Source: Alteromonadaceae bacterium (lineage in GTDB: Bacteria; Pseudomonadota; Gammaproteobacteria; Pseudomonadales; Oleiphilaceae). Taken from it: 19,927 bases of DNA. Position numbers and translations under genes: made by a program. The first letter of the stretch is position 1. Each line of letters begins with the position of its first letter. The stretch spans positions 1-19,927 of the forward strand of contig JABXHG010000013.1 in NCBI GenBank assembly GCA_013393545.1. The letters are read 5' to 3'. The notes under the pieces are model-generated. The model was given only the letters and a program-made list of their open reading frames with translations, made no database searches and was not told where the DNA came from. Positions 2,611 through 19,293 of this stretch are shown here, one piece after another.

Positions 2611-2855
2611 GACTCTGGACCCCAAAAAAGGAATCAGAGTAGCAAACGGTTGAATAAACAATGCGTTAAGAAAGATTCCGGTTTAACGTGAACACCGGTT
2701 CCGGGAATGTGAACGCGGATTCCGGCATGGTGAACACCGATTCCGGAAAATCACCAAAAAGTGTTCATCTTCAGCCGGAATGGCTGTTCACGTTAAACCA
2801 GAATAGGTGTTCACGTTCGCCCGGAATGGGTGTTCATGATGGGCCGGAATATGCA
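2611..2855. repeat. IstA-proximal terminal repeat array of the IS21 element
   Basis: This 245-bp non-coding end holds about seven imperfect copies of the motif ATTCCGG-nnn-AACGTGAACAC. From about 2675 the first copies read in the direct sense (ATTCCGGTTTAACGTGAACA, then variants with GTGAACGC and GTGAACACC). After a switch near 2750-2760 the remaining copies run in the opposite sense (AGTGTTCATCTTCAGCCGGA, TGTTCACGTTAAACCAGAAT, GTGTTCACGTTCGCCCGGAA, GTGTTCATGATGGGCCGGAA). These are most likely IstA binding sites. IS21 ends usually have two or three such repeats, so this end is unusually complex. The other end (221-265) has two direct copies plus one copy at 308-320. Confidence 0.75.
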
Positions 2856-3059
2856 ACGCCTCCTCTTCAGCCTGCTTCCATACACCAGAAATCACCATAA
2901 CTCTTCATAGTGGGATTCAAAAAGCCTTCCTCATACCGCCAAAATTTAGTTAGCTTGCGACCAATCTGGCTCTAAATTTATATTGACCATCCGGATAGTA
3001 TGTGCTTTATTGGTCAAAACACGCACTCACTACCAACAAAAAACGTGGGAGAAAGAACG
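2856..3059 (+). promoter_or_regulatory. Leader of the catabolic operon with a candidate sigma70 promoter
   Basis: No gene is seen in these 204 bases. A possible -35 TTGACC (2983-2988), a 17-nt spacer and a -10 TTTATT (3006-3011) precede the acyl-CoA dehydrogenase. An inverted repeat, TTGACCA (2983-2989) with TGGTCAA (3011-3017), brackets this promoter and could be a regulator site. It is not a clear copy of the CGGTCAGT half-site found near the tetR gene, although TTGACC...ATAGTAT (2983-2999) faintly resembles the site at 15088. A ribosome binding site, GGGAGA, lies at 3047-3052. The promoter call rests only on hexamer match and spacing. Confidence 0.4.
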
Positions 3060-4184
3060 ATGCTTGAACGACAGGATTACGAAGAGTTTCGCAAGGCGGT
3101 GAGGCGACTGGCCGAAACAAAAATTCAGCCTCATGCCGCGGACGTTGACGAAAAGAAGCGATTTCCCGAAGAAGCACTTGCGGCATTCAAGGAATTACAA
3201 CTGATTGCGCTGCCCTTTGATGAAAGTATTGGTGGTCAGTCTGGGGATGTACTGGCCCAATGCATTTGTTTGGAGGAAATCGCCCGTGTCTGTGCCACCT
3301 CATCATTAACGCTGATGGTGATCTGGGCCGGGCTTGGTCCGATAGCCTCACTTGGTTCGCCACAGTTGATCGAAGAGGTAATGGAACCGGCCATTAATGG
3401 CAATACCGTTGCCTCCATCTGTTTGACCGAAATTCACGGCGGCTCTGATGTCTGGGGTGCTCGCACTCGCGCCCAATACAAGGATGGCCAGTGGGTGATC
3501 AATGGCCAGAAGCGCTACATCACCAATGCCACTCGCTCCGACTGGTACTCGGTCCTGGCGCGCACCGGTGAAGACAGTTTTGGCGTGTTCGCAGTGCATA
3601 AATCTGACCCTGGTCTTTCCTTTGGCAAGCTGGAATCGAAGATGGGTGTAAGGGGCAGTCCCACCGCCGATGTGATTTTCGAAGATTGCCGCGTTGAGGG
3701 TTACCGGCTACTTGGTGATTCGAAAGAGGGCCGACAGTACATCACTGATTCTCTGGCCTACACTCGACCGTTGATAGGAGCTCAGGCGCTTGGTATTGCC
3801 CAAGGGGCGCTTGATGCTGCCATCAAGTACGTGAAAGAAAGAGAAGTGTTTGGCCAGCAGGTGGCGCGTTTTCAGATGATCCGCGGCACTATTGCCGATT
3901 TGGCAACGGAGATTGAAGCTGCTCGCCAACTGCTCTATCGGTCGTGTCAAGCGGTCGAAAACAAGGAGCCCGATGCCCGCACCCTAGCCTCCATGGCCAA
4001 GCTATTCTGCAGCAATGTCGCCATGAAAGTGGCCACCGAGTCAGTGCAGCTTCATGGCGGTGCGGGTTATCTGACTGATTTTCCCGTGGAGCGCATGATG
4101 CGCGACGCGAAAATCACCCAGATATACGAAGGAACCAGCGAGATCCAGAAATTGATCGTCGCAAAAGCCATGCTTTCTGATTGA
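3060..4184 (+). CDS. Acyl-CoA dehydrogenase family flavoprotein
   Basis: It would catalyse FAD-dependent alpha,beta-oxidation of an acyl-CoA, or the reverse reduction as in CaiA. The 374-aa length fits the family. Visible landmarks are TEIHGGSD (about residues 123-130; the usual motif is TEPxxGSD, so Pro is replaced by Ile), KRYITNAT, REVFGQQVARFQMIRG, and a C-terminal IYEGTSEIQ whose Glu (about residue 357) is at the catalytic-base position of MCAD and SCAD. I chose the ATG at 3060 because GGGAGA lies 7 nt upstream; the frame is open from 3000, but that part lacks a ribosome site. The next gene begins 10 nt after the stop, so this is the first gene of an operon. The acyl substrate cannot be read from the sequence. 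Confidence 0.92.
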   Translation: MLERQDYEEFRKAVRRLAETKIQPHAADVDEKKRFPEEALAAFKELQLIALPFDESIGGQSGDVLAQCICLEEIARVCATSSLTLMVIWAGLGPIASLGSPQLIEEVMEPAINGNTVASICLTEIHGGSDVWGARTRAQYKDGQWVINGQKRYITNATRSDWYSVLARTGEDSFGVFAVHKSDPGLSFGKLESKMGVRGSPTADVIFEDCRVEGYRLLGDSKEGRQYITDSLAYTRPLIGAQALGIAQGALDAAIKYVKEREVFGQQVARFQMIRGTIADLATEIEAARQLLYRSCQAVENKEPDARTLASMAKLFCSNVAMKVATESVQLHGGAGYLTDFPVERMMRDAKITQIYEGTSEIQKLIVAKAMLSD

Positions 4185-4194
4185 GACGAAAAAC

Positions 4195-5328
4195 ATGATT
4201 GCTCAAATTAACTATCTGACCAATATTCGCTTGGGAGCAGGCGCAATAGCTTCACTGAATGATGAATTGGCAAGTATGAATGTGAGTAAGCCGCTGATCA
4301 TTACGGATGCTGGCCTAGTTTCCAGCGGTCTCCTTGATAAGGTCAGGGCAACTGCCAAGCTTTCGGACAGCGTTGCTATTTATGATGGCACTCCAGCTAA
4401 CCCGACTGAAGCGGCTGTAGAGGATGCTCTACACGCCTATCGTTGCGACAACTGTGATGGCATCGTTGCAATCGGTGGCGGTTCCAGCATAGACCTTGCC
4501 AAAGCTGTTGCGTTGCTCGCAACTCATGAGCGGCCATTGCGCCAATATGCAGCGATTAATGGTGGCGTTGCCAGAATCGGCCCAACCGTTCCCCTCGTGG
4601 CAGTACCAACTACTGCAGGAACTGGAAGCGAGGTAGGCAGGGCGTCCCTTATAACGCTACACGATGGCCGTAAGCTCGGATTTTTATCCCCTTACTTGAT
4701 CCCGGACTTGGCCATCTGCGACGCCGAACTGACCCGCTCACTTCCGGCCGGGCTAACCGCCGCAACCGGGATGGATGCCATTGCCCACTGCGTTGAAACT
4801 TACCTGAGTCCCAAGGTTAATCCGCCGGCCGATGCCATTGCGCTGGACGGCCTGCGCCGAGCTTCGAAGTATCTGATTCGTGCCGTCAACGACGGAACCG
4901 ATATGGAAGCACGCAGTGAAATGATGATTGCGGCTCTGGAAGGCGCGCTGGCATTCCAGAAGGGTTTGGGGGGAGTGCACTCCATGTCCCACGCTCTTGG
5001 TGGCCTGAAGGAGCTTAAACTTCACCATGGCACCCTGAACGCGGTATTGCTGCCCCCGGTATTGCGTTTTAACCAGAGCCATTGCGGTGACAAGTTCGAC
5101 CACCTCAAGGCCGCCATGGGCCTGCCGGCCGATGCCGATCTGCCAGCTGAATTCGAGCGTCTGAATGCTGAGCTTGGCATGCCAAAGAATCTTCGCGAAA
5201 TGGGTGTGCCCGACAATGTGCTAGAGGATATGGCCCAGTTTTCCAAGGAAGACCACTCCACCGCCACCAATCCGCGTCCAGCGTCGGCTGAGGACTTCCT
5301 CGCCATGCTGAAAGAAACCATGGACTGA
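4195..5328 (+). CDS. Iron-type (group III) alcohol dehydrogenase
   Basis: This is an NAD(P)-dependent alcohol dehydrogenase of the Fe-ADH superfamily, 377 aa, full length. The nucleotide-binding signature GGGSSIDLAKA lies at about residues 94-104 and PTTAGTGSEV at 138-147. The metal ligands expected from FucO-type enzymes are present: D194 and H198 in GMDAIAHCVE, H262 in VHSMSH, and H278 in HHGTLNA. H266 matches the conserved second His. It starts with ATG 10 nt after the upstream stop, with only a weak ribosome site, so translational coupling is likely. It could oxidise an alcohol or reduce a keto or aldehyde intermediate of the pathway. Maleylacetate reductases share this fold, so the substrate is undetermined. 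Confidence 0.92.
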   Translation: MIAQINYLTNIRLGAGAIASLNDELASMNVSKPLIITDAGLVSSGLLDKVRATAKLSDSVAIYDGTPANPTEAAVEDALHAYRCDNCDGIVAIGGGSSIDLAKAVALLATHERPLRQYAAINGGVARIGPTVPLVAVPTTAGTGSEVGRASLITLHDGRKLGFLSPYLIPDLAICDAELTRSLPAGLTAATGMDAIAHCVETYLSPKVNPPADAIALDGLRRASKYLIRAVNDGTDMEARSEMMIAALEGALAFQKGLGGVHSMSHALGGLKELKLHHGTLNAVLLPPVLRFNQSHCGDKFDHLKAAMGLPADADLPAEFERLNAELGMPKNLREMGVPDNVLEDMAQFSKEDHSTATNPRPASAEDFLAMLKETMD

Positions 5329-5352
5329 AGTTGTGACTGTGAGGAGTTTGAT

Positions 5353-6504
5353 ATGACTGAGCAGAACTCAATCCTGAAGGGCACCCGCGTTTTGGATTTA
5401 ACTCGTCTTGCGCCAGGTCCGTACGGCTCAATGTTGCTAGCAGATATGGGGGCAGAGGTTATTGTCATCGGCGGAGGTCGTTCCGGCTTACCAATTGACA
5501 GCTACCGTCGTGGCAAGCGCTTTATAAGCCTTGACCTTAAAAGCCAAGAAGGTCTGGAAGCCTTCCGCCTGTTGGTTGCCGATGCAGATGTTTTGATGGA
5601 AGGCTTTCGTCCTGGTGTTATGCGCCGCCTGGGCCTCGACTATGACTCCCTCAGGCAATACAACCCGAGACTAGTGTACTGCTCTCTGACAGGCTACGGA
5701 CAGGATGGTCCGCTCGCTCAAGAGGCAGGTCACGATATCAACTATGTAGGTCTGTCCGGTGCCCTTGGCGCCATGGGCCCGGTCGAGGGACCACCGGCAC
5801 TGCCATTAAACATTATTGCGGATTTTGCCGCTGGTGGACTCTATGCCGCCTATTCTATCCTTGGAGCCCTACTGGAAAGGGAGCGCTCGGGACTGGGGCA
5901 GTTCCTGGACGTTGCTATGGTAGATGGCTGTCTTTCCTTGATGATGATGCACTACCAGGATTGGGGTAAGGCGGTGTTGCCTTCTCGTGGCAAAGGCCTG
6001 CTGACTGGAGAGGCCCCTTTTTATAGGTGTTACGTCTGTAGCGACGGCAAGTACCTGGCAGTTGGGGCTTTGGAAAGTGCGTTTTTCACAAATCTGTGGC
6101 GGGGGCTGAACCTTGAGCAACCAATGCCAGATCACATGCGCCCGGATACTTGGCCCGCCATGACTGAGCAGTTCGAGCGACTATTCGCCAGCCGGTCCCG
6201 GGACGCCTGGGTGAAGCACTTCGAGGGCCGGGATGCCTGCGTTTCACCGGTGTTAGCGCCAGATGAGGTGTTCGAACACCCGCATGTGCAGGCTCGATTT
6301 CCTGGCAGCGACAGCTACGCTACTCCGGCTATTCCCCACTATTCCCGAACCCCGACCATGCCGGGTGTTGCTGATGGCACGGACGATTCGTATGCGGTCC
6401 TCCGAGCGTTAGGTCTGTCAGAAGCGAAGATCAACAAAGCTGTTCCTGAAACCTCGAACGTGACAGGGCTGGAGTGGCCACCGGTTAAACCCAGTCAACC
6501 CTGA
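5353..6504 (+). CDS. AMACR-type family III CoA enzyme (CaiB/BaiF superfamily)
   Basis: The protein is 383 aa with an N-terminal Rossmann-like part beginning LKGTRVLDLTRLAPGPYGSM. The motif GHDINYVGLSG (residues 126-136) and NIIADFAAGG (153-162) match the alpha-methylacyl-CoA racemase branch. H127 and D157 correspond closely to the catalytic His126 and Asp156 of the mycobacterial racemase MCR. This suggests epimerisation of a 2-methylacyl-CoA (or other alpha-substituted acyl-CoA) rather than CoA transfer. Translation starts at an ATG with GAGGAG at 5341-5346. It lies 24 nt after the ADH stop in the same operon, next to the acyl-CoA dehydrogenase that would use only one epimer. The second family III protein of this window (15130-16305) lacks the GHDINY histidine and looks like a true transferase. 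Confidence 0.85.
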   Translation: MTEQNSILKGTRVLDLTRLAPGPYGSMLLADMGAEVIVIGGGRSGLPIDSYRRGKRFISLDLKSQEGLEAFRLLVADADVLMEGFRPGVMRRLGLDYDSLRQYNPRLVYCSLTGYGQDGPLAQEAGHDINYVGLSGALGAMGPVEGPPALPLNIIADFAAGGLYAAYSILGALLERERSGLGQFLDVAMVDGCLSLMMMHYQDWGKAVLPSRGKGLLTGEAPFYRCYVCSDGKYLAVGALESAFFTNLWRGLNLEQPMPDHMRPDTWPAMTEQFERLFASRSRDAWVKHFEGRDACVSPVLAPDEVFEHPHVQARFPGSDSYATPAIPHYSRTPTMPGVADGTDDSYAVLRALGLSEAKINKAVPETSNVTGLEWPPVKPSQP

Positions 6505-6607
6505 GGCTGCAGAGCCAAGCCGTCACAACAGCCCATAACAACAAGAACTGGACGGATCATCGCCAGGGTGAACCGGCCAATTACGCAAGACTGAGAGGAG
6601 TTCAATA

Positions 6608-7666
6608 ATGAAAACGCTTAAAAACCCTATCAAGGTGGCTATTATTGCCGCCAGCCTAACCCTTGCTGCCGGTAATGCCATGGCCGAGGAAGTAACCTGG
6701 AAGATGGCCACGCCCTGGGGCGGCGGCCCCTGGCTGGAGAGGGATGCTAAAGGCTTTGCCAAGAATGTGGAGGACCTTACCGGTGGACGCATAAAAATCA
6801 ATGTCTTTCCGGGCGGTACGCTTTCCAACGCCCTGAAAATCACCGAGGCTGTCAACCGTGGTGTTGTTGAGATTGGCCACAATTGGATGGCCTATGACTG
6901 GGGCAGGGATCGAACCACCGCGCTTTTTTCAGGCTATGCGGGCTCCCCAACCCCAGAAGGTTACCTGATGTGGCTCTATGAGGGGGGCGGCTTGGAACTC
7001 TGGCAAGAGTACCGCGATGAAGAGTTCAATGTAGTGTCATTCCCCTGCGCGGTAATCAGTACAGAGATTTTCCTGCATTCAAATAAGAAAGTTCAGACCC
7101 ACGAAGACTTCAAAGGTCTGAAGCTTCGCACTTCCGGCGCCTGGGCTGAGATTGCGTCCGACCTTGGCGCTTCCACTGTTGTGATGCCGGGAGCCGAAGT
7201 GTATACGTCGCTTGACCGGGGTGTAATCGATGCCACTGAATGGGGGAGCCCAGAGATCAACAAGCCGACAGGTTTCGTCGATATAGCTAAGTATGTAGTT
7301 GTACCCGGCATGCACCAGCCTGGGGGGGTCCTGGAGTGCGAAATCAACAAGAAGGTCTGGGCGGGTCTTTCCAAAGAAGACCAGCAGGCAATCGCCACAG
7401 CTGCAAAGCTCTCCATGTACGAAAGCTGGAGTGCTGGTGCCAATGCTGACCTTTCAGCATTCAAGGAGATGACCGAGGGTGACAATGAAGTTGTGCACCT
7501 TGATCGGGACTTCATGGCGACAATTGAAGAGGCCACAACTAATTGGGAAGACAAGCAGGCTGAGGACAATAAGTGGTTCGCCAGAGTACTGAATTCTCTG
7601 AGGGATTTTGAGGGTCAACTCGCTGTCTGGCCTCAGTATCGCTTCCCCATCGGCGGAGAGCAGTAA
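6608..7666 (+). CDS. dctP: TRAP transporter periplasmic solute-binding protein
   Basis: This is the periplasmic receptor of a tripartite TRAP transporter; dctQ and dctM follow. At 352 aa it has a typical signal peptide: basic start MKTLKNPIK, hydrophobic core, and probable cleavage after AGNAMA at residue 26. The family's carboxylate-binding Arg is R174 in LKLRTSG. ATEWGSPEINKPTGF (about 210-223) followed by VVPGMHQPGG resembles the 2-oxoacid-binding (TakP-like) branch of DctP proteins, where the EW motif helps bind substrate. The ligand is thus probably an organic acid, perhaps a 2-oxo or 2-hydroxy acid; that is inference. AGGAG at 6596-6600 precedes the ATG. A 103-nt gap before it shows no clear promoter. 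A hairpin follows the gene. Confidence 0.92.
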   Translation: MKTLKNPIKVAIIAASLTLAAGNAMAEEVTWKMATPWGGGPWLERDAKGFAKNVEDLTGGRIKINVFPGGTLSNALKITEAVNRGVVEIGHNWMAYDWGRDRTTALFSGYAGSPTPEGYLMWLYEGGGLELWQEYRDEEFNVVSFPCAVISTEIFLHSNKKVQTHEDFKGLKLRTSGAWAEIASDLGASTVVMPGAEVYTSLDRGVIDATEWGSPEINKPTGFVDIAKYVVVPGMHQPGGVLECEINKKVWAGLSKEDQQAIATAAKLSMYESWSAGANADLSAFKEMTEGDNEVVHLDRDFMATIEEATTNWEDKQAEDNKWFARVLNSLRDFEGQLAVWPQYRFPIGGEQ

Positions 7667-7682
7667 AAGCAGGGTGTGAAGC

Positions 7683-7707
7683 GGGCCTCTATCTCTGTGA
7701 GAGGCCC
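7683..7707 (+). terminator. Intercistronic hairpin between dctP and dctQ
   Basis: GGGCCTCT (7683-7690) pairs perfectly with AGAGGCCC (7700-7707) around a 9-nt loop. The tail GGCTTTATC is only weakly U-rich, so this is more likely a partial terminator or an mRNA-stabilising element that lets the abundant binding protein be made in excess over the membrane subunits. Confidence 0.5.
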
Positions 7708-7778
7708 GGCTTTATCAAAGACACGATGCTCTCGGCCCAACCTTGGTTCTTGCCCGGGGCATCGGCATTAGGGTATGC

Positions 7779-8312
7779 ATGATGAATGTTTTCAGCTACT
7801 TCGGAAAAGCCGTGGATGCGTTGTCGAAAGCAGCTGCGCTGATCGGTGCATTACTGATCGTGCCGCTGATTGGTTCGTTGACCTATGAGGTCGTTAGCCG
7901 CTACATCCTGAACACGCCAACATTCTGGGCGTATGAAATGAGCTACATGTTCATGGGATCAACTTTTCTGTTGGGCATGGCGTACGCGCTGAAGGTCCGC
8001 CAACATGTCAACGTCGATATCTTTTATGGGATCTTGCCGCCACGAGGCAAAGCGACCATGGACATGATTGGCTTGGCAATATTGTTAGTGGCACTGATCT
8101 GGATCGTTGACGCGTTATTTCAGTATGCGCTGGAGGCATACGAGTACCAGGAAACCTCCGGCGCTTCAGGCTGGAATCCCGTGATCTGGCCGTTCCGAAC
8201 CGTCTGGGTTATCGGGTTCGGTATATTAACGGCGCAAACCGCCGTCGAGCTGGTGCGCTCCATTGCCATCCTAATTACGGGCGACGAGGGGCCGGAGGTG
8301 TGGCATGAGTGA
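7779..8312 (+). CDS. dctQ: TRAP transporter small membrane subunit
   Basis: DctQ is the four-helix inner-membrane subunit that works with DctM. Hydrophobic segments are visible at about residues 15-35, 45-65, 85-105 and 130-155 of the protein, and GSLTYEVVSRYILN and FWAYEMSYMFMG are typical of the family. The frame is open from a TTG at 7743, but the likely start is one of the two adjacent ATGs at 7779 and 7782 (MMNVFSYFGKAV), with only a weak AGGG upstream; the exact one cannot be decided. It is about 177 aa. It follows the dctP hairpin and overlaps dctM by 8 nt (ATGAGTGA), so the two membrane subunits are translationally coupled. Confidence 0.88.
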   Translation: MMNVFSYFGKAVDALSKAAALIGALLIVPLIGSLTYEVVSRYILNTPTFWAYEMSYMFMGSTFLLGMAYALKVRQHVNVDIFYGILPPRGKATMDMIGLAILLVALIWIVDALFQYALEAYEYQETSGASGWNPVIWPFRTVWVIGFGILTAQTAVELVRSIAILITGDEGPEVWHE

Positions 8313-9621
8313 ATACATCGGATTCTGGATGTTCCCGGTTCTCCTGATTTTCCTGTTGGGCGGTTTCCCCATTGCATTGTCGATGATTTCCACCGCGTTT
8401 ATTTTCGGTGTGATTCAGTTCGGCGGTTCTGCATCGTTCCAGCTGATTTCCCAGATTGATAGCGTCGCGGGCAATTCGGTGCTGGCCGCAGTACCGTTAT
8501 TTGTCTTCATGGGAGCCTTCCTGGAGAAAAGTGGCATCGCATCGAAGTTGCTTGAGGCTATTCATATCTGGACCTGGCGACTACCCGGAGGCATGGCCCT
8601 CAGCACTATAATTATGGGAGCTATCTTTGCTGCCATCAGTGGTGTAGTCGGTGCCACAGAAGCTGTGATTGGCTTACTAACTGTACCGGTTATGTTGAAA
8701 CATGCCTATGACAAGCGATTGATTTCCGGGACCGTGTGCGCAAGTGGGTCGCTAGGTACGGTAATTCCGCCTTCCATAACAGTGATCGTGCTGGGGCCGG
8801 TTGCCAACGTTTCGGTGGGTGAACTCTTTGCCGGTCTGCTGCTGCCTGGGCTGATAATGGCTGTGCTTTTCGGTCTTTACGTGGTCGGCATTGCCATTGC
8901 AAAGCCGGCTATGGCTCCACGCGCGATAGAGGGAAGCCCCGAGTATAGCCTTGGGCAGAAACTGAGAATAACTGCAGTGGCGCTAATTCCGCCTTCGATA
9001 CTTATCTTCGCCGTGCTCGGTAGCATCCTTATGGGCGTTGCCACACCCACGGAGGCAGCTGCATGGGGTGCACTGGGAGCGGTTGGTTTATCCGCTATCT
9101 ATCGCACGTTTACCTGGGACTTGTTCGGTAACGCCCTGATGAAAACCCTGCTTATTACTACAATGATCCTGCTCATTGTTCTGGGCGGCAGTATGTTTGC
9201 GGGTGTCTTCTTTGCATCAGGCGGGATGTTGGCAATCCAGACCCTGCTGAATGACCTGGGAATCCCAGCTTGGGGTGTGATTGCGTTAATTCTGCTTCTG
9301 ACATTCGGAGCTGGCTTTGTCCTTGACTTGATTTCGGTGGTGCTGATCGTCATCCCGATCGCCATGCCTCTGGTGCTGAACCTTGGCTTCGACCCTATTT
9401 GGTTCTGTGTTGCCTTCCTGGTGGTTCTGCAAACCAGCTACCTGACTCCACCCATGGCGCCATCGATCTTCTATCTTCGAGCAGTGGCGCCGCCGGAGAT
9501 CACCCTACGGCATATGTACAGCGGTGTTATTCCGTTCATCACCCTTCAGATCATTACCTTGGCGGTGGTGTTGGTATTCCCGGAGCTAGCAACTTGGTTG
9601 CCAGAAGTACTGCTGGGTTAA
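8305..9621 (+). CDS. dctM: TRAP transporter large membrane subunit
   Basis: DctM is the transport channel of the TRAP system and uses a sodium gradient in characterised cases. The 438-aa protein is hydrophobic throughout with many predicted membrane segments. Family landmarks include the start [49 protein letters not shown] and [17 protein letters not shown] near the C-terminus. Its ATG lies within the end of dctQ. No frameshift or missing part is seen, so the DctPQM transporter is complete. It is followed by a 76-nt gap with a strong palindrome before the aldehyde dehydrogenase. Confidence 0.93.
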
Positions 9622-9653
9622 ATGGCCGAGGCTAAACGTTGAAAATAATTCGA

Positions 9654-9677
9654 CCACCGGTGGCGATCCGCCACCGG
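9654..9677 (+). promoter_or_regulatory. Strong palindrome/hairpin upstream of the aldehyde dehydrogenase
   Basis: CCGGTGGCG (9657-9665) and CGCCACCGG (9669-9677) form a perfect 9-bp stem with a 3-nt loop. The left part is also a 10-bp DNA palindrome, CCACCGGTGG (9654-9663). No U-tract follows; the next element is the AAGGAG ribosome site at 9686-9691. It may be an mRNA-processing or stability element, or a protein-binding site, rather than a terminator. Confidence 0.45.
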
Positions 9678-9697
9678 AACATAAGAAGGAGATCATC

Positions 9698-11275
9698 ATG
9701 ACTGTATTAGGACATCAATTGATTGGTCAGATCAGCTACCGGGGTGATCAAGCTGCCCTTGAACCGATTGACCCTGCCACCAGAGAGCGCCTGGAGCCAG
9801 ACTTCCCCGGCGCCAGTAAAAGAGATATCGAACAAGCCTGCAGCCTGGCCCTGGAGGCCTTTGGTGAGTACCGCGAAACTTCTCTGGAAGCGCGAGCCAG
9901 CTTTCTCGAAACTATTGCCACGGAAATCGAGGCTCTTGGCCCTAGACTGATTGAGCGAGCGATGGCTGAAACTGGCCTACCGAAGAGCCGGATTGAAGGC
10001 GAACGTGGTCGTACCTGTGGTCAGCTCCGGTTGTTTGCCTCGGTAGTGCGTGACGGTGAGTGGCTGGACGTCAGGGTGGACCCGGCGCTGCCTGAGCGCC
10101 AGCCGATGCCCCGGCTTGACCTGCGCCAGCGGCACATTGCTGTCGGGCCAGTTGCGGTTTTCGGGGCTAGTAATTTCCCGCTAGCGTTCTCGGTTGCAGG
10201 CGGCGATACTGCATCCGCGCTGGCAGCAGGCTGCCCGGTGGTGGTCAAGGGCCACCCAGCCCACCCTGGCACATCGGAGTTGGTCGGCCGGGCAATCCAA
10301 CAAGCGGCCAAAGCCTGTCAGATGCCGAATGGCGTATTTTCACTGTTGTTCGGTGTCGGTAACGAGATCGGCCAGGCTCTGGTGGCGAACCCCTGCATCC
10401 GGGCGGTTGGCTTTACAGGATCGCGGCGTGGCGGGTTAGCCCTGACAGCGATTGCGCAACAGCGCAGCGTACCGATCCCGGTCTTCGCTGAAATGAGCAG
10501 CATTAACCCCGTATTTCTCCTGCCTGAAGCTGTTGCGACCCGGGCTAGCAGTATTGCCAAGGATTTTGCGGCATCCCTTAATATGGGCGCAGGTCAATTC
10601 TGCACCAACCCAGGGCTGATAATTGGCTGTCGCGGCAAAGCCCTTGACGCCTTCCAACAAGCTGCCACGGATGCCGTGGCGCAAGCGGATGCTCAGACCA
10701 TGCTGACACCGGATATACACGCAGCCTATACGCAGGGCATCGAGCGGTTGTCCGGCCATGCCGCTGTTCAGTGTCTAGCGAGTGGACAGCAAGGCGTAGC
10801 CTCCAACACCTGCCAACCCCAGTTGTTTTCCGCCCGAGCCAGCGATTTTCTCACAGATGAAACATTGCAACAGGAGGTTTTTGGGGCCGCGTCCTTGATT
10901 ATCGAGTGTGAGGGACTGGAGGAGATGCAGCGCGTTGCCGAGAGCCTCGAAGGACAGCTCACAGCCACTCTGCACATGGATGAGGACGACATGGGGGCTG
11001 CACAATCACTACTCCCAATATTGGAAACGAAGGTTGGCCGGATATTGGTCAATGGCTGGCCGACAGGTGTAGAAGTCTGCCATGCCATGGTTCATGGGGG
11101 GCCTTTCCCGGCCACCTCTGATAGCCGCACCACATCGGTAGGCAGCGCGGCTATTCGACGCTTTCTCCGGCCTGTATGTTATCAGAATTTCCCCGACGCC
11201 CTGCGCCCGCATGCCCTGAAGGAGGCAAACCCTTATAGGCTGCACCGCTTGTTGGATGGTGAGCGGGAAGCATAG
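9698..11275 (+). CDS. Aldehyde dehydrogenase, alpha-ketoglutarate-semialdehyde (KGSADH) type
   Basis: The 525-aa length and sequence pattern match the NADP-type 2,5-dioxopentanoate dehydrogenase branch, which oxidises 2-oxoglutarate semialdehyde to 2-oxoglutarate at the end of sugar-acid and hydroxyproline catabolism. Catalytic residues are visible: N159 in FGASNFP, K184 in [13 protein letters not shown], the glycine motif GFTGSRRGG (238-246), E265 in FAEMSSINP and nucleophile C302 in [10 protein letters not shown] good ribosome site (AAGGAG) sits 6 nt before the ATG. It is the last gene of the operon; the IS3 element begins 90 nt later. The substrate could be another short oxo-aldehyde, but an entry into the TCA cycle fits this context. 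Confidence in the family is high, in the exact substrate moderate. Confidence 0.87.
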
Positions 11276-11432
11276 ATGTGACAAGCTAGGGTGATGGGCC
11301 CGGCCGCTAGAGCGTGCCGAGCAGATAAAAAGCACGATTTAGCGGCACTTTCCATTTACTGTATTTGTAGTGGTTCAATGATTCCGGACACCAACGTAGG
11401 TGGTAAGATTACCACCATAAACGAGGTGTCTG

Positions 11433-12595
<1,163 letters not shown>

Positions 12596-12677
12596 CCACT
12601 ACAATTATATACGAATGAACCTATGCGCAAGCTGGAAACCATTTATTCGAGAGTTTGAATTCATTGAGGAAACAAAG

Positions 12678-13301
12678 TTGACTAAGATGGGCAAGAAACT
12701 TAACAAAAACGAAATATCTCGTGAACGCAGCATGAATCGGTTGATACAGGCTGCATTCGAATTGTTTGTGATACGCGGATACCATGCCACCAGCCTGGAG
12801 GCTATTTCATCAAAAGCCGGCCTCACTAAAGGCTCGGTTTATTTTTACTTTGGCAGCAAGGAAAAGCTGATCCTGCACATGTTTGAAGTTCTTCGTGAGG
12901 ATCTTGTGGATGGTCTGGTGGCCACTCTGAGAAATCCTGTCGGCAGCCATGTGGACCGCATCATCCGCTATATCCACAAGGGTGCTGATTTTGGCGCGGA
13001 ACGGCCCAACGAGCTGCTCTTCATGATCCAGATAGCCATCGAATTCGCTCGCCAGGAGAATTTCATCGCCACGGCAATCAGGGAGCTATACGGAGATGTA
13101 CACGCCGCTGTCGAGGCAGTGGTCAGCGAGGCCCAGGCCGTTGGTTCGATGTCGTCAGACATTGACGCACGCTCGTTCGCCTCCATGATCGTGGCGGTCC
13201 ACGATGGCATGATGCTGGAGTGGCACCTGCATGGCGCTGAAATTAGCGGCCCCGATCTCGTCAAAAATGTGCGGCGCATGTTGTTGAACGGTATCGGCTA
13301 A
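12678..13301 (+). CDS. TetR/AcrR-family transcriptional regulator
   Basis: The protein is a TetR-type one-component repressor of about 207 aa. The N-terminal helix-turn-helix is clear: AFELFVIRGYHATSLEAISS, then KAGLTKGSVYFYFGSKEKLI. The C-terminal two-thirds would bind a small ligand, possibly an acyl-CoA given its neighbours. The start is probably the TTG at 12678, because GAGGA at 12666-12670 is 7 nt upstream; the ATG at 12687 lacks a well-placed ribosome site. The frame is open back into the IS3 element at 12534, which is not natural gene sequence. IS3 inserted only about 75 bp upstream of this start and probably altered the native promoter. It ends 30 nt from the convergent ligase gene and likely controls the divergent promoters at 15002-15129. 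Confidence 0.9.
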   Translation: MTKMGKKLNKNEISRERSMNRLIQAAFELFVIRGYHATSLEAISSKAGLTKGSVYFYFGSKEKLILHMFEVLREDLVDGLVATLRNPVGSHVDRIIRYIHKGADFGAERPNELLFMIQIAIEFARQENFIATAIRELYGDVHAAVEAVVSEAQAVGSMSSDIDARSFASMIVAVHDGMMLEWHLHGAEISGPDLVKNVRRMLLNGIG

Positions 13302-13330
13302 GCTATCCCATTGGGTTTACCTAATGCTGT

Positions 13331-13347
13331 TTATCTCTGGGAGATAA
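13331..13347. terminator. Hairpin between convergent tetR and ligase genes
   Basis: TTATCTC (13331-13337) pairs with GAGATAA (13341-13347) around TGG, in the 3' overlap zone of the two convergent genes; it includes the ligase stop codon. No strong U-run follows on either strand, so it is a weak candidate for a shared terminator. Confidence 0.3.
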
Positions 13348-15001
13348 GCTCCTTTAGGCTGACGCCGGCGCCTTTGCGGTCCCAGGTGCTGATTTGAATG
13401 CCGCGCTGTGATAGCTGCTTTTTCTTCACCTTGTTGGTGGGTGTTCTCGGTAGTTCGTCGATGATTTCTATATAGCGTGGCACCATGAAATGGGGCAGTG
13501 CGCGTGCCAGGAAACTCAACAGCGCCGGTGGTTCAACTACTGCGTCCTCCATGGTTACGATATAAACCAGAATATCGTCGTCGTTCTCATAGCCCGACGG
13601 AACACCCACCGCCACGCATTCCTTCACACCAGGAAAGTCTGCCACTGCAGCTTCGATATCAAACGAGGAGATATTCTCCGCCCGGCGGCGGATGCGGTCG
13701 CCTTTGCGATCAATGTAGAACATGTTGCCGCTGTTATCCCTGAAGGCGATATCTCCGGTATGAAACCAAAGGTTTCGCCACGCATTCACCGTTTCCTCCG
13801 GCATACCCATGTAGTACAACATGGTCGTCCAGGGGTGCCGGGGCCTGACCACGATTTCACCTGCGGTGCCGTCCGGTACCGGCCGGTCAGTTTCCGGATC
13901 GACGACTTCCACGTCATACCAGTCGGTTAACACTTTGCCGCACGAGCCGGCTACCTCCGGGCGTTGCCGCGACGTCCAACATGGGCAGCCAACTTCACTC
14001 ATTCCCCACATTTCAATACCTTTGACCCCAAACCGCTCTAAGAAGGCGTGGCCATGGCGTTTTGGCAATGGGCAGCACATGAGGCGTGTAAGAAAGTTGT
14101 CTGAATCTTCCTGTCGTGCTGGTTCTGCCTGGATCATTTCGATCATAGGTCCATGGGCAATGCTTAAAGTTGCTTCACTTTCCCGGATACGATCCAGCCA
14201 GCTTTTAGCGTCAAACTTTCGATCAAGAACCAATGTTCCGCCAGCCGCAAAGATGGCGAGCACTCCCATGAACTTGCCGGCAATGTGAAACAACGGGTGT
14301 GCACTGTAGAACACGTCAGACGCGGTCATGTCGGTTTCCACAGCCGTGGTGTGGGCCAACAGGCAGATATGGCCATGGGGCATTACCACACCCTTGGCAG
14401 GACCGGTGGTGCCAGATGTGAACACCACGGACGCCGCATCGGCGGGCTGGATCTCTGGCCATGGCTTTTTCCGTGGTGTTGGCTTGGCGATGACTTCATG
14501 GTGATGTGATACGCCGATACCACCTTTGAGCAAGTCGGTAGGCTTAGCTTCCGAGTTGTCGATAACGACTAGCTGCCGGACGCCGGAAAAGTCCCAGGTA
14601 AGCTCGTCAATGTACGGAAATAGATCAGCGTCGCTGACAATCAGGCTGGGCTTGGCCAAGTTGAGGACGTGGGCCAGCGAGTTGCCGCGGTAGCCGGTAT
14701 TTGCCGAAACATCGACTGCGCCGACCAGGGCTGCGGCCATCCAGGCGTGCAGTGCAGCAATACTATTGGCGGCAAATATGAGGATACGATCACCTGGCCC
14801 GACGCCTACCTCAAGGAAATGCGCCGCTAGAGCTTCGGCATGGGTCATGAACTGGCTATACGTTTCCTGATTACCCGACACCTCGCGGACGAAAACTGCC
14901 TCGGGTGAGGCCTCCACACGCCGTGCAGCTACTTGAGGTAATGTCCACTCAGAGAGCGAATCGGGTATTGCGGATGCAGGTATTTGTTTTTGTAAAACCA
15001 T
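13331..15001 (-). CDS. Acyl-CoA synthetase (AMP-forming), CaiC-like
   Basis: This adenylate-forming ligase activates a carboxylic acid to its CoA thioester. It is 556 aa. Core motifs are present: the P-loop-like VFTSGTTGPAKG (about 193-204), MWGMSEVG (331-338), WFHTGDIAF with D417, the hinge region YIDRKGDRIRRRAENIS (429-445) and the C-terminal RTPTNKVKKKQL with the catalytic-lysine position. GEIVVRPRHPWTTMLYYMGM (381-400) and the hinge motif recall crotonobetaine/carnitine-CoA ligases. The hinge reads DRKGD and AEN where relatives often have KD and GEN, small deviations that may matter. ATG at 15001 has GGAG 7 nt upstream. It is transcribed away from the CoA-transferase gene; its promoter contains a TetR-type half-site. 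Confidence 0.9.
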   Translation of the reverse strand: MVLQKQIPASAIPDSLSEWTLPQVAARRVEASPEAVFVREVSGNQETYSQFMTHAEALAAHFLEVGVGPGDRILIFAANSIAALHAWMAAALVGAVDVSANTGYRGNSLAHVLNLAKPSLIVSDADLFPYIDELTWDFSGVRQLVVIDNSEAKPTDLLKGGIGVSHHHEVIAKPTPRKKPWPEIQPADAASVVFTSGTTGPAKGVVMPHGHICLLAHTTAVETDMTASDVFYSAHPLFHIAGKFMGVLAIFAAGGTLVLDRKFDAKSWLDRIRESEATLSIAHGPMIEMIQAEPARQEDSDNFLTRLMCCPLPKRHGHAFLERFGVKGIEMWGMSEVGCPCWTSRQRPEVAGSCGKVLTDWYDVEVVDPETDRPVPDGTAGEIVVRPRHPWTTMLYYMGMPEETVNAWRNLWFHTGDIAFRDNSGNMFYIDRKGDRIRRRAENISSFDIEAAVADFPGVKECVAVGVPSGYENDDDILVYIVTMEDAVVEPPALLSFLARALPHFMVPRYIEIIDELPRTPTNKVKKKQLSQRGIQISTWDRKGAGVSLKELISQR

Positions 15002-15033
15002 AAAGCGTCTCCGGCCATTGTGGCGTGCCTTGA

Positions 15034-15062
15034 GGTATAAATTACCGGTCAGTACTTGTCAA
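15034..15062 (-). promoter_or_regulatory. Promoter of the CaiC-like ligase with an embedded operator
   Basis: On the minus strand TTGACA (15062-15057) and TATACC (15039-15034) are separated by exactly 17 nt, a near-consensus sigma70 promoter. The spacer contains TACTGACCGGTA, so a bound TetR protein there would block RNA polymerase. Confidence 0.65.
15040..15053. promoter_or_regulatory. Putative TetR operator 1
   Basis: AATTACCGGTCAGT matches 12 of 14 positions of the palindrome ACTGACCGGTCAGT that occurs exactly at 17476-17489. It lies inside the ligase promoter spacer and just upstream of the opposite promoter's -35, a good place to repress both directions. That the neighbouring TetR protein binds it is inference. 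Confidence 0.55.
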
Positions 15063-15084
15063 ACCAGTTTGTGTATATTATTAA
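15056..15084 (+). promoter_or_regulatory. Candidate promoter of the caiB-like/GH88 transcript
   Basis: TTGTCA (15056-15061), a 17-nt AT-rich spacer and TATTAA (15079-15084) point towards the CoA-transferase gene. It overlaps the ligase -35 on the other strand, so the two promoters are back to back. The -10 could be shifted a few bases within the AT-rich run. Confidence 0.45.
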
Positions 15085-15087
15085 AAT

Positions 15088-15101
15088 ACTATACGGTCAG
15101 T
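15088..15101. promoter_or_regulatory. Putative TetR operator 2
   Basis: ACTATACGGTCAGT matches 11 of 14 positions of ACTGACCGGTCAGT, with a perfect CGGTCAGT half. It sits just downstream of the candidate plus-strand promoter, near the expected transcription start. It shares the nonamer CGGTCAGTA with operator 1, 47 bp away centre to centre (48 bp start to start). Confidence 0.5.
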
Positions 15102-15129
15102 AAGTAAAATGGAATGATGGAGGAAGCCA

Positions 15130-16305
15130 ATGAAACCACTTTCTGGGGTCACCGTGCTAGAGCTTGGCATGGTTATGCAGGTGCCACTTGCCGGGCAGAT
15201 GCTTGGGGATTACGGCGCCGACGTGATTAAGATTGAACGGCCGCCCCGAGGCGATATTATGCGGGACCTCGACGAGGTCGGCACCGCCCGCAAAGATATG
15301 AGCTGCTATTACGCTGCGGTTGGTTGTAATAAGCGGACCCTGTGCCTCGACCTCAAGCAGGATGAAGGCCGCGAAGTCCTTGGCAAGCTGATTGATAAAG
15401 CCGACGTGCTGATTCATAACTTTCGGCCCGGTGCCATGGAGCGACTCGGCTTTGGTTACGAGGAAGTTTCTAAGCGCAATCCCCGGCTGGTGTATGCGGT
15501 TGGTTACGCCTTTGGCGCAAAGGGCCCGTTATCAGGTATGCCGGGCCAGGATATGCTGGCGCAGTCTCTCAGCGGCTTTGCCATGAATGGGGTTGAGTCC
15601 GGTGGTCGCCCCCGCCTTACTGCTACCCCGACGGTCGACTATGCCACGGCGGCATCGTTATCGCAGGGAGTGCTGGCGGCCCTCATGGGCCGGGAACGTA
15701 CCGGCAAGGGCGATCTGGTCACCACCTCTCTGTTTGATGTCGCCATTGCGATGCAAATGCTTGAGACGTCCAGTCGCGCAATGTACGGCTACCGCACCGA
15801 TTGGGTTCAGTACGCCATGCTCTTCAAGACCCAGGACGGCTGGATCACTGTTCTCACGTTATTTCGGGACAATCCCCTGCAACTGATGTGCAAGGCGTTT
15901 AACGAAGAGGACATGAGTTGGGACCCGCTGTTGGCCAATGCAACCCTGCAACGCAAAAACGTCGGCCTGGTACAGGAAAAATTCGGGCCGGTAATGGAGC
16001 GTTATACCACTGACGAATGTGTAGAGCGGTTATCTAAAACCGACATCCTCTGTGCCCCGGTGATGGATCTGGATGACACCCTGAGACACCCGCAAACCCG
16101 GCAAAACGATATTTTGCGGGAGGTGGACATCCCCGGCCACGGACCCGTTCAACTGATTGGCAACCCTGTAAAACTGGCGGGCCAGGGTAAAGAAAGGCCA
16201 CGGCCACCGGCCGCTCTAGGCGAATTTTCGAGTGAGATTCTAAGTGACTTCGGATATTCCGAAAGTGAAATCAGGGATTTTCAGGCGCGCGGCATCGTTA
16301 GCTGA
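15130..16305 (+). CDS. Family III CoA-transferase, CaiB/FRC-like
   Basis: The 391-aa protein belongs to the CaiB/BaiF superfamily. The start LSGVTVLELGMVMQVPLAGQ and YGADVIKIERPPRGD are typical. PGQDMLAQSLSGF places Asp141 at the catalytic aspartate position (Asp169 in FRC and CaiB), which forms the acyl-enzyme anhydride, and the racemase His is absent. It therefore likely moves CoA between two carboxylic acids. GGAGGA at 15119-15124 precedes the ATG. It is divergent from the CaiC-like ligase and 34 nt ahead of the GH88-like gene, so those two form an operon. Having both a ligase and a transferase allows priming by ATP and later CoA recycling, as in carnitine metabolism; the real substrate is unknown. 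Confidence 0.88.
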   Translation: MKPLSGVTVLELGMVMQVPLAGQMLGDYGADVIKIERPPRGDIMRDLDEVGTARKDMSCYYAAVGCNKRTLCLDLKQDEGREVLGKLIDKADVLIHNFRPGAMERLGFGYEEVSKRNPRLVYAVGYAFGAKGPLSGMPGQDMLAQSLSGFAMNGVESGGRPRLTATPTVDYATAASLSQGVLAALMGRERTGKGDLVTTSLFDVAIAMQMLETSSRAMYGYRTDWVQYAMLFKTQDGWITVLTLFRDNPLQLMCKAFNEEDMSWDPLLANATLQRKNVGLVQEKFGPVMERYTTDECVERLSKTDILCAPVMDLDDTLRHPQTRQNDILREVDIPGHGPVQLIGNPVKLAGQGKERPRPPAALGEFSSEILSDFGYSESEIRDFQARGIVS

Positions 16306-16339
16306 TTGGCAAGCAAAAAGAACCGAGAGGTATTAAATA

Positions 16340-17515
16340 ATGAACGAAAAGTCTACATACACCAGTGATGAAAAACGCTTGTTTGACCAAACTATTGAAG
16401 GACTGACTGAACGGGCGCGTCAAACGCTTAAGCAACCGTTAACGGGGTTCCCTCACTACGCCGACACGAAGACCGGTGAGTGGACTACCACGGTAGATGG
16501 TTTCTGGACAGGAGGATTCTGGCCCGGCGTACTCTGGCTGAGCGGATATTATTCCGGCGATTCGTCACTATGGGAAGCGGCCGAGGAGTGGGTGGAACGT
16601 CTAGAACCGAGGGTCGACTCTGATTCGGTGTTTCGGGGCTTCCTGTTCTATTTCGGATGTTCTGTCGGGGCAGATCTTGCGGATAGCAGGAAAGCCGAGA
16701 CCTTGGCGTTAGACGCTGCCAGGAGTCTCTGCGCTACCTTTCGCCCCAATATCGGTCTGATGCCCCTGGGCACAACGGCGGAGGAAGCTCATACAGTCGG
16801 GGAGAATGAAACTAACATCGACAGCTTATCAGCCAGCCTGGTTTTGGCTTGGGCTGCGGAGAAGACTGGCGACGATAAATTCAGGGATGTGGCCATCCGC
16901 CATGCCCTGACCAACGCCGACTTTTGCGTACGCGACGATGGCTCAGTATGCCAATCCGCTAGCTTTGACAACCAGACCGGGAAGTTGATCAAAACCTATA
17001 CCCATAAGGGCTACGGCCCGAACTCTACCTGGGGCCGTGCTCAGGCTTGGGCTATGATGAGCTACGCTTATCTATCGGCACTGTATCCGGAGAATCGTGA
17101 AATCCGTGACTACGCCGAAAAAGTCTGCGGATGGTGGACTCAGAATGTACCCGATGACGGGGTGGCCTACTGGGATTTCGATGCGCCCCAGGAAGCCGAC
17201 ACTCCGAAGGACACCTCTGCCACCTCCATCGCCTGCTATGCCCTGCTGACACTGGCTACCGTCCTTGATGACCGCGAAACCGCGCAGGATTATCAACGCA
17301 AGGCTCGTAACACCGTCAAGACCCTTTGTCGTGACTATGTTGTGGCCGCGCCAGGGAGCACTGGTACCATCCCGCCCGCTATGCTAACACGAGGCTGCTT
17401 CGACCCAATGCGCGGTGTCGCCATTGAGCATGAGCTGATCTGGGGCGACTACTTTCTGCTGCACTGTTTGGGTATACTGACCGGTCAGTTATCTACCAAC
17501 AAACCAGATGAATAA
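16340..17515 (+). CDS. GH88-family (unsaturated glucuronyl hydrolase-like) protein
   Basis: This is an alpha/alpha-barrel protein of 391 aa. Landmarks of GH88 are DGFWTGGFWPGVLWL (residues 53-67), NETNIDSLSASLVLAWA (157-172), YTHKGYGPNSTWGRAQAWAM (220-239), VAYWDFDAP, DTSATSIACYALL and WGDYFLLHCL. D161 aligns with the acid/base Asp149 of Bacillus UGL. The segment that should read THDLGFLF reads VFRGFLFY here (97-104), so the second catalytic Asp (Asp88) appears replaced, by F98 in a gap-free alignment from memory. No signal peptide is visible, so it is cytoplasmic. GAGG lies 9 nt before the ATG. Known GH88 enzymes hydrate delta-4,5-unsaturated uronides; here the changed site and the acyl-CoA context make another substrate or a lost activity possible. 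Confidence 0.82.
   Translation: MNEKSTYTSDEKRLFDQTIEGLTERARQTLKQPLTGFPHYADTKTGEWTTTVDGFWTGGFWPGVLWLSGYYSGDSSLWEAAEEWVERLEPRVDSDSVFRGFLFYFGCSVGADLADSRKAETLALDAARSLCATFRPNIGLMPLGTTAEEAHTVGENETNIDSLSASLVLAWAAEKTGDDKFRDVAIRHALTNADFCVRDDGSVCQSASFDNQTGKLIKTYTHKGYGPNSTWGRAQAWAMMSYAYLSALYPENREIRDYAEKVCGWWTQNVPDDGVAYWDFDAPQEADTPKDTSATSIACYALLTLATVLDDRETAQDYQRKARNTVKTLCRDYVVAAPGSTGTIPPAMLTRGCFDPMRGVAIEHELIWGDYFLLHCLGILTGQLSTNKPDE
17476..17489. promoter_or_regulatory. Perfect 14-bp palindrome resembling a TetR operator
   Basis: ACTGACCGGTCAGT is fully self-complementary and contains the CGGTCAGT half-site seen twice between the divergent genes. It lies in the last codons of the GH88-like gene (encoding LTGQ). 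It could control a downstream gene that was lost, or be chance. The half-site also occurs inside the ligase gene at 13884-13891, which shows that chance copies exist. Confidence 0.35.
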
Positions 17516-17711
17516 TGACGGCATCAAGGTCTGGGTGTTCAGTTTCCGGGCCTTCTGCTGACTATCCGGGAACTGATTCTGAAACTGAGCAATATCGAGA
17601 CCTACCTTTGAATATAGCAGGTCAGGGGCTGTGATGGCCCTATCGGGTTTCTCGAAAAACACCTTGCCAAGGTGATGGCGCTCCAAAACATGCGGAACTT
17701 GAGGAATGTGC
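17516..17711 (-). pseudogene. Unidentified coding-like remnant downstream of the GH88 gene
   Basis: On the minus strand a frame is open through this stretch (HHLGKVFFEKPDRAITAPDL, then LLYSKVGLDIAQFQNQF, LNTQTLMPS) without a recognisable start or end of its own: it begins in IS21 repeat sequence (about 17712) and runs into the GH88 3' end. The residues look protein-like, but I do not recognise the family. It may be the tail of a gene cut by the IS21-family element. No plus-strand gene is seen here. Confidence 0.2.
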
Positions 17712-17868
17712 ATATTCTGACCCATCATGAACACCCATTCCGGCTGAAGATGAATACTTTTCAGGATTTCCGGAATCGGTGTTCACGTTCAACCAGAATT
17801 AGTCTTGGAATATTGTCCATTCAACCGTTTGCTACCCTGGTTCCTTTTTGTAGGAACCAGGGTCACCC
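17712..17868 (+). mobile_element. Decayed end of a second IS21-family element
   Basis: Starting at ATATTCTGACCCATCATGAA the sequence follows the minus strand of 2855-2612: repeats CATTCCGGCTGAAGATGAAT, TTTCCGGAATCGGTGTTCAC, then the istA leader ATTCAACCGTTTGCTACC (17819-17836). Compared with the complete copy, about 50 bp and about 45 bp are missing, each between direct repeats. Homology is lost after the leader, so no istA body remains. Orientation is opposite to the copy at 218-2855, so both istA-proximal ends face the catabolic block. It is diverged (for example CTGGTTCC for CTGATTCC), hence a related or older element rather than a recent duplicate. Confidence 0.78.
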
Positions 17869-17965
17869 CCTCTGGCAGGATAGTTGGTCTGCATACTATG
17901 GTCTTCCGTCGCGGCATCATCGGTGAGCTACATCGGCTGGTCAATCGAAAAAAGGGTTGAAAACC
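17869..17965. other. Short intergenic region before the reductase gene
   Basis: No gene or clear promoter is recognised in these 97 bases. AAAAGGG at about 17950-17956 supplies the ribosome binding site for the following gene. Any native promoter of that gene may have been displaced by the IS21 remnant upstream. Confidence 0.4.
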
Positions 17966-18904: not shown

Positions 18905-18906
18905 CA

Positions 18907-19210
18907 ATGTCGTTCCGCTTAGCGAATGCCCAAAAAGTTCTTTCGAGTCTATTGATCGAGGATATCGATGATTTTGCGCGTATCCTTGATGATCGTGGAG
19001 ACACGATCTTCAACCTCTACTCGCTGACGATCTCGGTCAATCGTCCACAGTGAAGGGGATGTTGGTAAATCACGATCCTCAAAAAAGTTATCAAACATAA
19101 TAGAGAGTACCGATGGACTGCGGCTAAAACCTGACGACACTCTGGTCTGTGAACTGCCGTACTTCGAGAAGATTATAGACGTGGCGGAGAGTTTTTTTCA
19201 GAACAGCTGA
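18907..19210 (+). pseudogene. Possible frameshifted gene-cassette ORF ahead of attC
   Basis: An ATG at 18907 opens a 48-aa frame (MSFRLANAQKVLSSLLIEDI, DDFARILDDRGDTIFNLYSL) that stops at 19053. In the +1 frame from 19028 coding-like sequence continues (HSEGDVGKSRSSKKL, IIESTDGLRLKPDD, TLVCELPYFEKIIDVAESFF) to a TGA at 19208-19210. Joined, they would give about 100 aa. The stop lies 25 nt before an attC site, as in integron cassettes. I do not recognise the protein. No attachment core is seen at its 5' side, and one or both halves could be chance. Confidence 0.3.
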
Positions 19211-19234
19211 CGCCTCATTCGAAGTATTCAAAGC

Positions 19235-19293
19235 ATATAACAATTCAAGTCAGAAGGACGCGCTAAAGCGCGTCTCTGCTTGAGGCGTTAAAT
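19235..19293 (+). other. attC: Integron attC recombination site (59 bp)
   Basis: The site runs from an R''-like ATATAAC (19235-19241) to R' GTTAAAT (19287-19293), which matches GTTRRRY. The bottom strand can fold as an attC hairpin: TAAC/GTTA (R), CAAG/CTTG (L, 19246-19249 with 19279-19282) separated by an unpaired AATT/AGGC spacer, CAGA/TCTG (19251-19254 with 19275-19278), two extra unpaired bases AG (19255-19256), and GACGCGC/GCGCGTC (19257-19263 with 19268-19274) with a TAAA loop. Layout and bases near TAACAATTC and GCGTTA resemble the aadA1 attC. Orientation places any cassette gene upstream on the plus strand. No integrase gene is in the window. R'' deviates from RYYYAAC by one position. 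Confidence 0.8.

Follow-up and report, generated by a model that had tools for sequence, protein, structure and literature searches.

What can a catabolic gene cluster degrade if it encodes the activation, epimerization and dehydrogenation of an acyl-CoA, and seemingly no hydratase to follow? This question is raised by a 19,927-nucleotide stretch of DNA from an Alteromonadaceae bacterium (GenBank assembly GCA_013393545.1, contig JABXHG010000013.1, positions 1 to 19,927; hereafter the window), in which the genes of interest occupy positions 3060-17515. Scans of open reading frames and family profiles confirmed that all of the families named in the initial annotation lie together there: an acyl-CoA dehydrogenase (ACAD), two CaiB-family proteins, an AMP-forming acyl-CoA ligase, an iron-containing alcohol dehydrogenase (Fe-ADH), an aldehyde dehydrogenase (ALDH), a TRAP importer, a TetR regulator and a protein resembling glycoside hydrolase family 88 (GH88). 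The genes and operator-like sites of the cluster and the IS3-family element are on the forward strand, except for the ligase gene. The same scans detected no crotonase, MaoC, thiolase or CaiT in 3060-17515, as annotated; the accompanying statement that the cluster has no hydratase is not supported, the GH88-like protein being of a family that hydrates cyclic enol ethers.

The gene set is, firmly, a real catabolic unit. With a probability that we place just short of even, it is a single TetR-controlled unit that degrades a cyclic 2-carboxy ether, the likeliest being tetrahydrofuran-2-carboxylate (tetrahydrofuroate) or something closely analogous, and in which the GH88-like protein is probably the "missing hydratase". 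We further propose, tentatively and with a likelihood somewhat below even, that a GH88-fold family, having left polysaccharide breakdown, now serves in Pseudomonadota and Rhodococcus as the hydratase that opens the ring in CoA-dependent pathways leading from cyclic ether acids (tetrahydrofuroate and relatives that are hydroxylated and resemble anhydro-sugar acids) to 2-oxoglutarate, and that the window carries a complete, TetR-controlled version of such a pathway.

The product of the GH88-like gene (16340-17515) has the fold and overall sequence of the GH88 unsaturated glucuronyl hydrolase (UGL; 1vd5, 2ahf). D161, the counterpart of UGL Asp149, is kept in all 119 homologues, and H188 (UGL His193) in 114 of them; R233 was also recorded in the window protein. 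Asp88, which in UGL binds sugar hydroxyls, is absent throughout the 25-row clade of the window protein, in contrast to its retention in 16 of 16 UGL-like rows. Its place is taken by Phe98 in two alignments and by a gap in another, and is adjoined by a basic residue, Arg99, while K223 and E148-E149 replace further UGL residues. The CoA-linked GH88 proteins form a separate clade (support 100/99), marked by the motifs VF[RK]GF, AEE and THKG. As judged from the missing Asp88, the window protein has the GH88 fold and is not filed by us as a glucuronyl hydrolase. GH88 enzymes hydrate the cyclic enol ether that bears the carboxylate in unsaturated uronides. By analogy, the window protein would probably act as an enol-ether hydratase on a similar carboxylated ring, which makes it the likeliest candidate for a ring-opening step.

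The CoA-related context of this protein is not confined to the window. Comparison of the GH88 sequence with plasmids yielded 215 records, 37 of which showed at least 37% identity, followed by a gap down to 32-33%; 14 of the 37 loci above the gap and four of the 178 records below it were inspected by tblastn and annotation. A CoA-transferase, CaiB or acyl-CoA ligase gene was found by GH88 in all 14 upper loci, an ACAD together with an alcohol dehydrogenase in 10 (Fe-type in seven and Zn-type in three Rhodococcus loci) and an ALDH in 11. The loci differ in layout. Layout A is that of the window; layout B (Cupriavidus, Azospirillum) includes MaoC, a CoA-transferase of family I and a different ACAD and ligase, and layout C (Rhodococcus) the Zn-dependent alcohol dehydrogenase. 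Layout D (four Bradyrhizobium loci and genome G150; L164, L166-L168 and L151/L152) has a CoA-transferase, a crotonase and either DHDPS or AraD1, and no match to ACAD or to the Fe- or Zn-type alcohol dehydrogenases. A gene for a CehA/McbA metallohydrolase stands beside GH88 in two layout D loci (L164 and G150). Furthermore, a 519-aa protein, P0076, is a fusion of GH88 and MaoC, with a MaoC domain that shares 54% identity with its counterpart in the Cupriavidus cluster.

Three of the four records below the gap (Rhizobium etli, Paenibacillus and Hymenobacter) are polysaccharide loci. The fourth, on a plasmid of Halomontanus rarus (L171), has CoA genes, its haloarchaeal GH88 (32% identity) lying among SDR, crotonase, AMP-ligase, CoA-transferase, deoC and ribokinase genes. 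Searches of genomes with GH88 gave 22 matches among 398 genomes of the phylum at E 1e-20 (95% identity in G001, the nearest to the window of the genomes compared, 43% in G150 and 28-33% in the others) and a single one, G150 itself, among 297 genomes of its order at E 1e-50; the Cupriavidus form, searched at E 1e-55 against 369 genomes of the class, matched G001 alone.

Comparison with related genomes revealed that the cluster as a whole recurs. In G001, window positions 2905-11365 and 12604-19426 are contiguous (91 and 93% identity, respectively), and the IS3-family element that occupies 11366-12603 in the window is missing. As this contiguous, IS3-free copy exists, and as comparison with its empty site revealed a 3-bp duplication (ATT) at the junction, the IS3 element must have been inserted later, when the gene set already existed. 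Close orthologues of the first CaiB-family protein, CaiB1 (89-95% identity), were found in four of the 117 relatives searched, all of one genus. The whole set is present in G050 and G001, and the contig of G028 ends within the ALDH gene; the copy in G037 (L046/L047) gave several pieces per gene in tblastn, which may reflect sequencing error or decay. Upstream of the G028 cluster (L042:7637-16570) lies a second operon-like group encoding IclR, two TauD/TfdA-family dioxygenases, a glycerol-dehydrogenase-like Fe-ADH, an SDR, a cupin and a TRAP importer paralogous to that of the window (DctP 57%, DctM 67%).

CaiB1 alone is a poor marker of the cluster: two of 80 CaiB1 loci in named genomes, some of which are short contigs, carry GH88, namely those of Marinobacter caseinilyticus M3-13 and an Afipia metagenome-assembled genome, and two others (L050 and L051, with CaiB1 of 60 and 59% identity) contain no other window gene, L051 being just 3.5 kb long. 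In the Afipia genome the set is kept together in a different order (GH88 46%, CaiB2 53%, ligase 48%, Fe-ADH 60%, TetR 43%, ALDH 54%, ACAD 63% and CaiB1 57% identity). Across this genome and plasmids of Aminobacter (pMDW2) and Agrobacterium pusense, the orthologues are 39-66% identical; in both plasmids an ABC importer and SSADH-like ALDHs replace the TRAP importer and the window ALDH, and the A. pusense copy, which lies next to attKLM, has additional genes for ETF and ETF-QO. Aminobacter MDW-2 is mentioned in reviews on methomyl and carbamates.

In each alphaproteobacterial locus one palindrome is common to several promoters. A symmetric matrix, built from eight alphaproteobacterial sites alone and then scanned over the window, detected two strong sites, both within promoters: one of 24.4 bits between the ligase and CaiB2 genes (15084-15105) and one of 20.9 bits, a 22-bp palindrome upstream of the ACAD gene (2982-3003). 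The third best site reached 9.5 bits, the best of 100 block-shuffled windows 16.1 bits and 11 background loci at most 11.1 bits. Loci L040, L042, L044 and L046 also contain the 20.9-bit site; the 24.4-bit one was found again in L041, L044 and L047, with lesser sites of up to 11.0 bits. At the threshold used, no palindrome pair emerged from the Marinobacter promoters by themselves, the match having come via the alphaproteobacterial matrix. Because a matrix derived exclusively from Alphaproteobacteria picks out two strong sites in the window and no more, the genes are predicted to form one TetR regulon kept between Alpha- and Gammaproteobacteria, and their co-regulation is well supported by these sequence matches. 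The TetR gene itself (12687-13301; PF00440) has an uncertain start, the ATG at 12687 not being kept in G001. The initial annotation had stated beforehand that genes neither co-occurring elsewhere nor co-expressed would point to chance assembly by IS elements; they were found to co-occur across classes, with a common operator-like site.

The first seven genes of the cluster (ACAD to ALDH) run in one direction with small gaps. Among the remaining proteins, intact catalytic residues are present in the ACAD, CaiB1, CaiB2 and the ALDH. The ACAD (3060-4184; PF00441, PF02770, PF02771) scores 343 bits to 3pfd and has its catalytic Glu357 in the motif YEGTSEIQ, and the Fe-ADH (4195-5328) passes the 4-hydroxybutyrate dehydrogenase model NF058672 (548 bits, cut-off 500). 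CaiB1 (5353-6504) was considered as a CoA-transferase and rejected as such, with 283 and 271 bits to the racemases 2g04 and 1x74 versus at most 153 bits to CoA-transferases. The active site of AMACR relies on His, Asp and Glu residues; H127, D157 and E241 of CaiB1 align with those of 2g04/8rmw, and the annotated AMACR/MCR-type epimerase of 2-substituted acyl-CoAs was thus borne out. CaiB2 (15130-16305; 181 bits to 3ubm) is a family III CoA-transferase, an enzyme type that uses a catalytic Asp; its Asp170 aligns with that of 3ubm. The ligase gene, on the reverse strand (13331-15001; PF00501, PF13193), scores 413 bits with PRK06155, under the cut-off. The importer consists of DctP, the solute-binding protein (6608-7666; PF03480), DctQ, the small permease (7743-8312; PF04290), and DctM, the large permease (8305-9621; PF06808); the structures matched by DctP include ketoacid-binding 7ug8 and lactate-binding 7e9y, the best match, 5cm6, having no named ligand.

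The NADP+-type ALDH (9698-11275) scores 495 bits to 3v4c and 457 to 1eyy, possesses C302 and E265, and passes no NCBIfam equivalog model. Five homologues of 60-65% identity, out of 40 listed, were examined, and four of them (two from Azospirillum, one each from Paracoccus and Hartmannibacter) adjoin a DHDPS/KdgD-family dehydratase. Since such dehydratases form the semialdehyde of 2-oxoglutarate (KGSA), the enzyme is probably of the 2-oxoglutarate semialdehyde dehydrogenase (KGSADH) type, as initially annotated, and the pathway would probably end at 2-oxoglutarate.

The reactions, their order and the substrate that we infer from these genes are as follows. The acid would be taken up by the TRAP system; the ligase would prime, and CaiB2 transfer, the CoA moiety to give tetrahydrofuroyl-CoA, and CaiB1 would epimerize its alpha carbon, rendering both enantiomers usable. 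Removal of two hydrogens by the ACAD would generate 4,5-dihydro-2-furoyl-CoA, whose ring is an enol ether that bears the carboxyl on its enol-ether carbon; the GH88-fold protein would hydrate this compound either as the CoA ester or as the free acid once CaiB2 has moved the CoA on. The resulting hemiketal would open to 5-hydroxy-2-oxovalerate, to be oxidized by the Fe-ADH to 2,5-dioxovalerate and by the ALDH to 2-oxoglutarate. By this route, neither a crotonase, nor a thiolase, nor a separate thioesterase would be required. A cyclic 2-carboxy ether is suggested because genes for activation, epimerization and alpha,beta-dehydrogenation accompany those of GH88, a KGSADH-like ALDH and an alcohol dehydrogenase; our best single guess at the substrate, at a little under an even chance, is tetrahydrofuroate. 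In the layout D variant the ring would carry hydroxyls, crotonase would make the enol ether by dehydration, leading to a 2-keto-3-deoxy acid, whose conversion towards 2,5-dioxovalerate would fall to a DHDPS or AraD1 dehydratase in place of the alcohol dehydrogenase. The swap seen in Bradyrhizobium (ACAD and alcohol dehydrogenase for crotonase and DHDPS/AraD1) fits this scheme, since a hydroxylated ring acid would need the latter enzymes. The initial annotation is thus partly supported: its logic of import, CoA activation, epimerization and oxidation stands, and the branched acid that it envisaged is not required, a 2-alkoxy (cyclic ether) acid accounting for more of the set.

Several known systems resemble the proposed one in part. 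Tetrahydrofurfuryl alcohol, which would supply tetrahydrofuroate, is reportedly degraded by Ralstonia eutropha strain Bo; no names of genes for the lower pathway were found in the literature searched. According to the paper describing the hmf operon of Cupriavidus basilensis HMF14, the HmfABCDE pathway likewise takes a 2-carboxylate of an oxygen-containing ring through CoA activation, oxidation and opening to 2-oxoglutarate (PMC6678421); there, the aromatic furoate is hydroxylated by a molybdenum enzyme, in contrast to the flavin-dependent ACAD, epimerase and GH88-type protein proposed here. Pfam scans of the window detected no hmfABC molybdenum dehydrogenase genes, nor CaiD or CaiT. The annotated likeness to the Cai carnitine system holds at the level of families (ACAD, CaiB-family transferase, CaiC-related ligase) and not for the carnitine enzymes themselves, whose NCBIfam cut-offs were far from reached (CaiA 152.8 of 540, CaiB 66.7 and 106.8 of 413, CaiC 241.6 of 651 bits); besides lacking crotonase and CaiT, the window adds the AMACR epimerase, the ALDH and GH88. 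Sugar acid routes that form KGSA (SMP-30 lactonase, DHDPS dehydratase, ALDH) share the predicted last step, with ALDHs 60-65% identical to that of the window, and differ in that here the semialdehyde would arise from an alcohol dehydrogenase rather than a dehydratase. In the open literature searched we found no paper naming this gene set, an assignment of which may exist in papers outside the search, and, with the spellings that we used, none that refers to dihydrofuroyl-CoA or 5-hydroxy-2-oxovalerate.

The reading of the cluster as a tetrahydrofuroate pathway draws on its recurrence, the operator-like sites, the GH88 residues, the CoA and ALDH contexts, P0076 and the Bradyrhizobium swap. It also draws on the proximity, on plasmids, of a sister cluster to an hmf-like furoate operon (4.4 kb in C. 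necator NH9 and 4.7 kb in C. pinatubonensis HN-2), and on the degradation of tetrahydrofurfuryl alcohol reported for C. pinatubonensis JMP134 (PMC2842291). Other observations weigh against it. In the Cupriavidus and Azospirillum loci, and in P0076, MaoC is a second hydratase that could open the ring in place of GH88; L160, L164 and L165 yielded no ALDH, and one of the five ALDH homologue loci, that of Burkholderia anthina, has no dehydratase. The Fe-ADH model and the attKLM genes would also fit a C4 route. The hmf-like operon was identified by gene order (hmfABCDE and an MFS gene) and not by comparison with HMF14 sequences, and in Cupriavidus KK10 and X32 it was not detected up to 20 kb from the cluster; moreover, the annotations of the stretches looked at include no gene for a tetrahydrofurfuryl alcohol dehydrogenase.

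Identical enzymes would serve an acyclic alpha-alkoxy or aryloxy acid (2-alkoxypropionate or another lactyl-type ether), which would be epimerized, dehydrogenated to a 2-alkoxyacryloyl-CoA, hydrated by GH88 and split into a 2-oxo acid and an alcohol oxidized by the Fe-ADH and ALDH. TfdA acts on aryloxy acids, and the dioxygenase pair and paralogous importer upstream of the G028 cluster speak for such a substrate, which we nevertheless consider unlikely, as a C5 2-oxo acid with oxygen at C5 is indicated by the KGSADH-like ALDH and by the presence of DHDPS/AraD1 beside GH88 in Bradyrhizobium. It is rather improbable that, MaoC-less loci aside, GH88 is an accessory that, for example, releases the acid from a conjugate, the pathway itself serving a branched or 4-hydroxy acid (related to 4-hydroxybutyrate or gamma-butyrolactone). 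AMACR acts on 2-methyl acyl-CoAs, and the score of the Fe-ADH and the attKLM genes beside the Agrobacterium copy agree with this explanation, whereas the persistence of GH88 with CoA genes in 14 of 14 loci, despite swapped ligases, transferases, alcohol dehydrogenases and ALDHs, and its fusion to MaoC in P0076 argue against it.

That the GH88 protein is an ordinary unsaturated uronide hydrolase in a cluster taking up a sugar acid would agree with its family and fold, and with the presence of ABC and sugar genes in the stretches from Bradyrhizobium. This appears very unlikely given the loss of Asp88 from the whole clade, set against the UGL-like rows, and the lack of polysaccharide genes beside GH88 in the window, such genes being present in three of the four control loci. 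Finally, IS21 genes lie upstream of the cluster and the IS3-family element splits the ALDH gene from that of TetR, which would speak for a chance assembly of genes by IS elements; the contiguous IS3-free copy in G001, the recurrence across classes and the shared operator-like site make this barely credible, and we reject it.

Outside the cluster, the left edge of the window (3-332) contains a weak LEM-3-like GIY-YIG fragment, under the Pfam cut-off, and the right edge (19618-19854) an apparent IS3-type transposase fragment, judged by eye. An ornithine cyclodeaminase-family gene (17957-18904) passes PRK06141 (Delta1-pyrroline/piperideine-2-carboxylate reductase; 435 bits, cut-off 322). It was considered as a member of the cluster and rejected: the remnant of an IS21 end lies between it and the GH88 gene, and it was not found in the contig of M. 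caseinilyticus, though this stops approx. 1.25 kb past GH88.

If the proposed pathway is correct, saturated cyclic ether acids would have genes assigned to their lower pathway, none of which was found to be named in the literature searched. It would mean that an ether can be cleaved without an oxygenase, by desaturation to an enol ether followed by hydration. It would also place a "glycoside hydrolase" family within acyl-CoA metabolism, so that GH88 annotations would need to be split, a division that the sequence marks of the CoA-linked clade would make easy.

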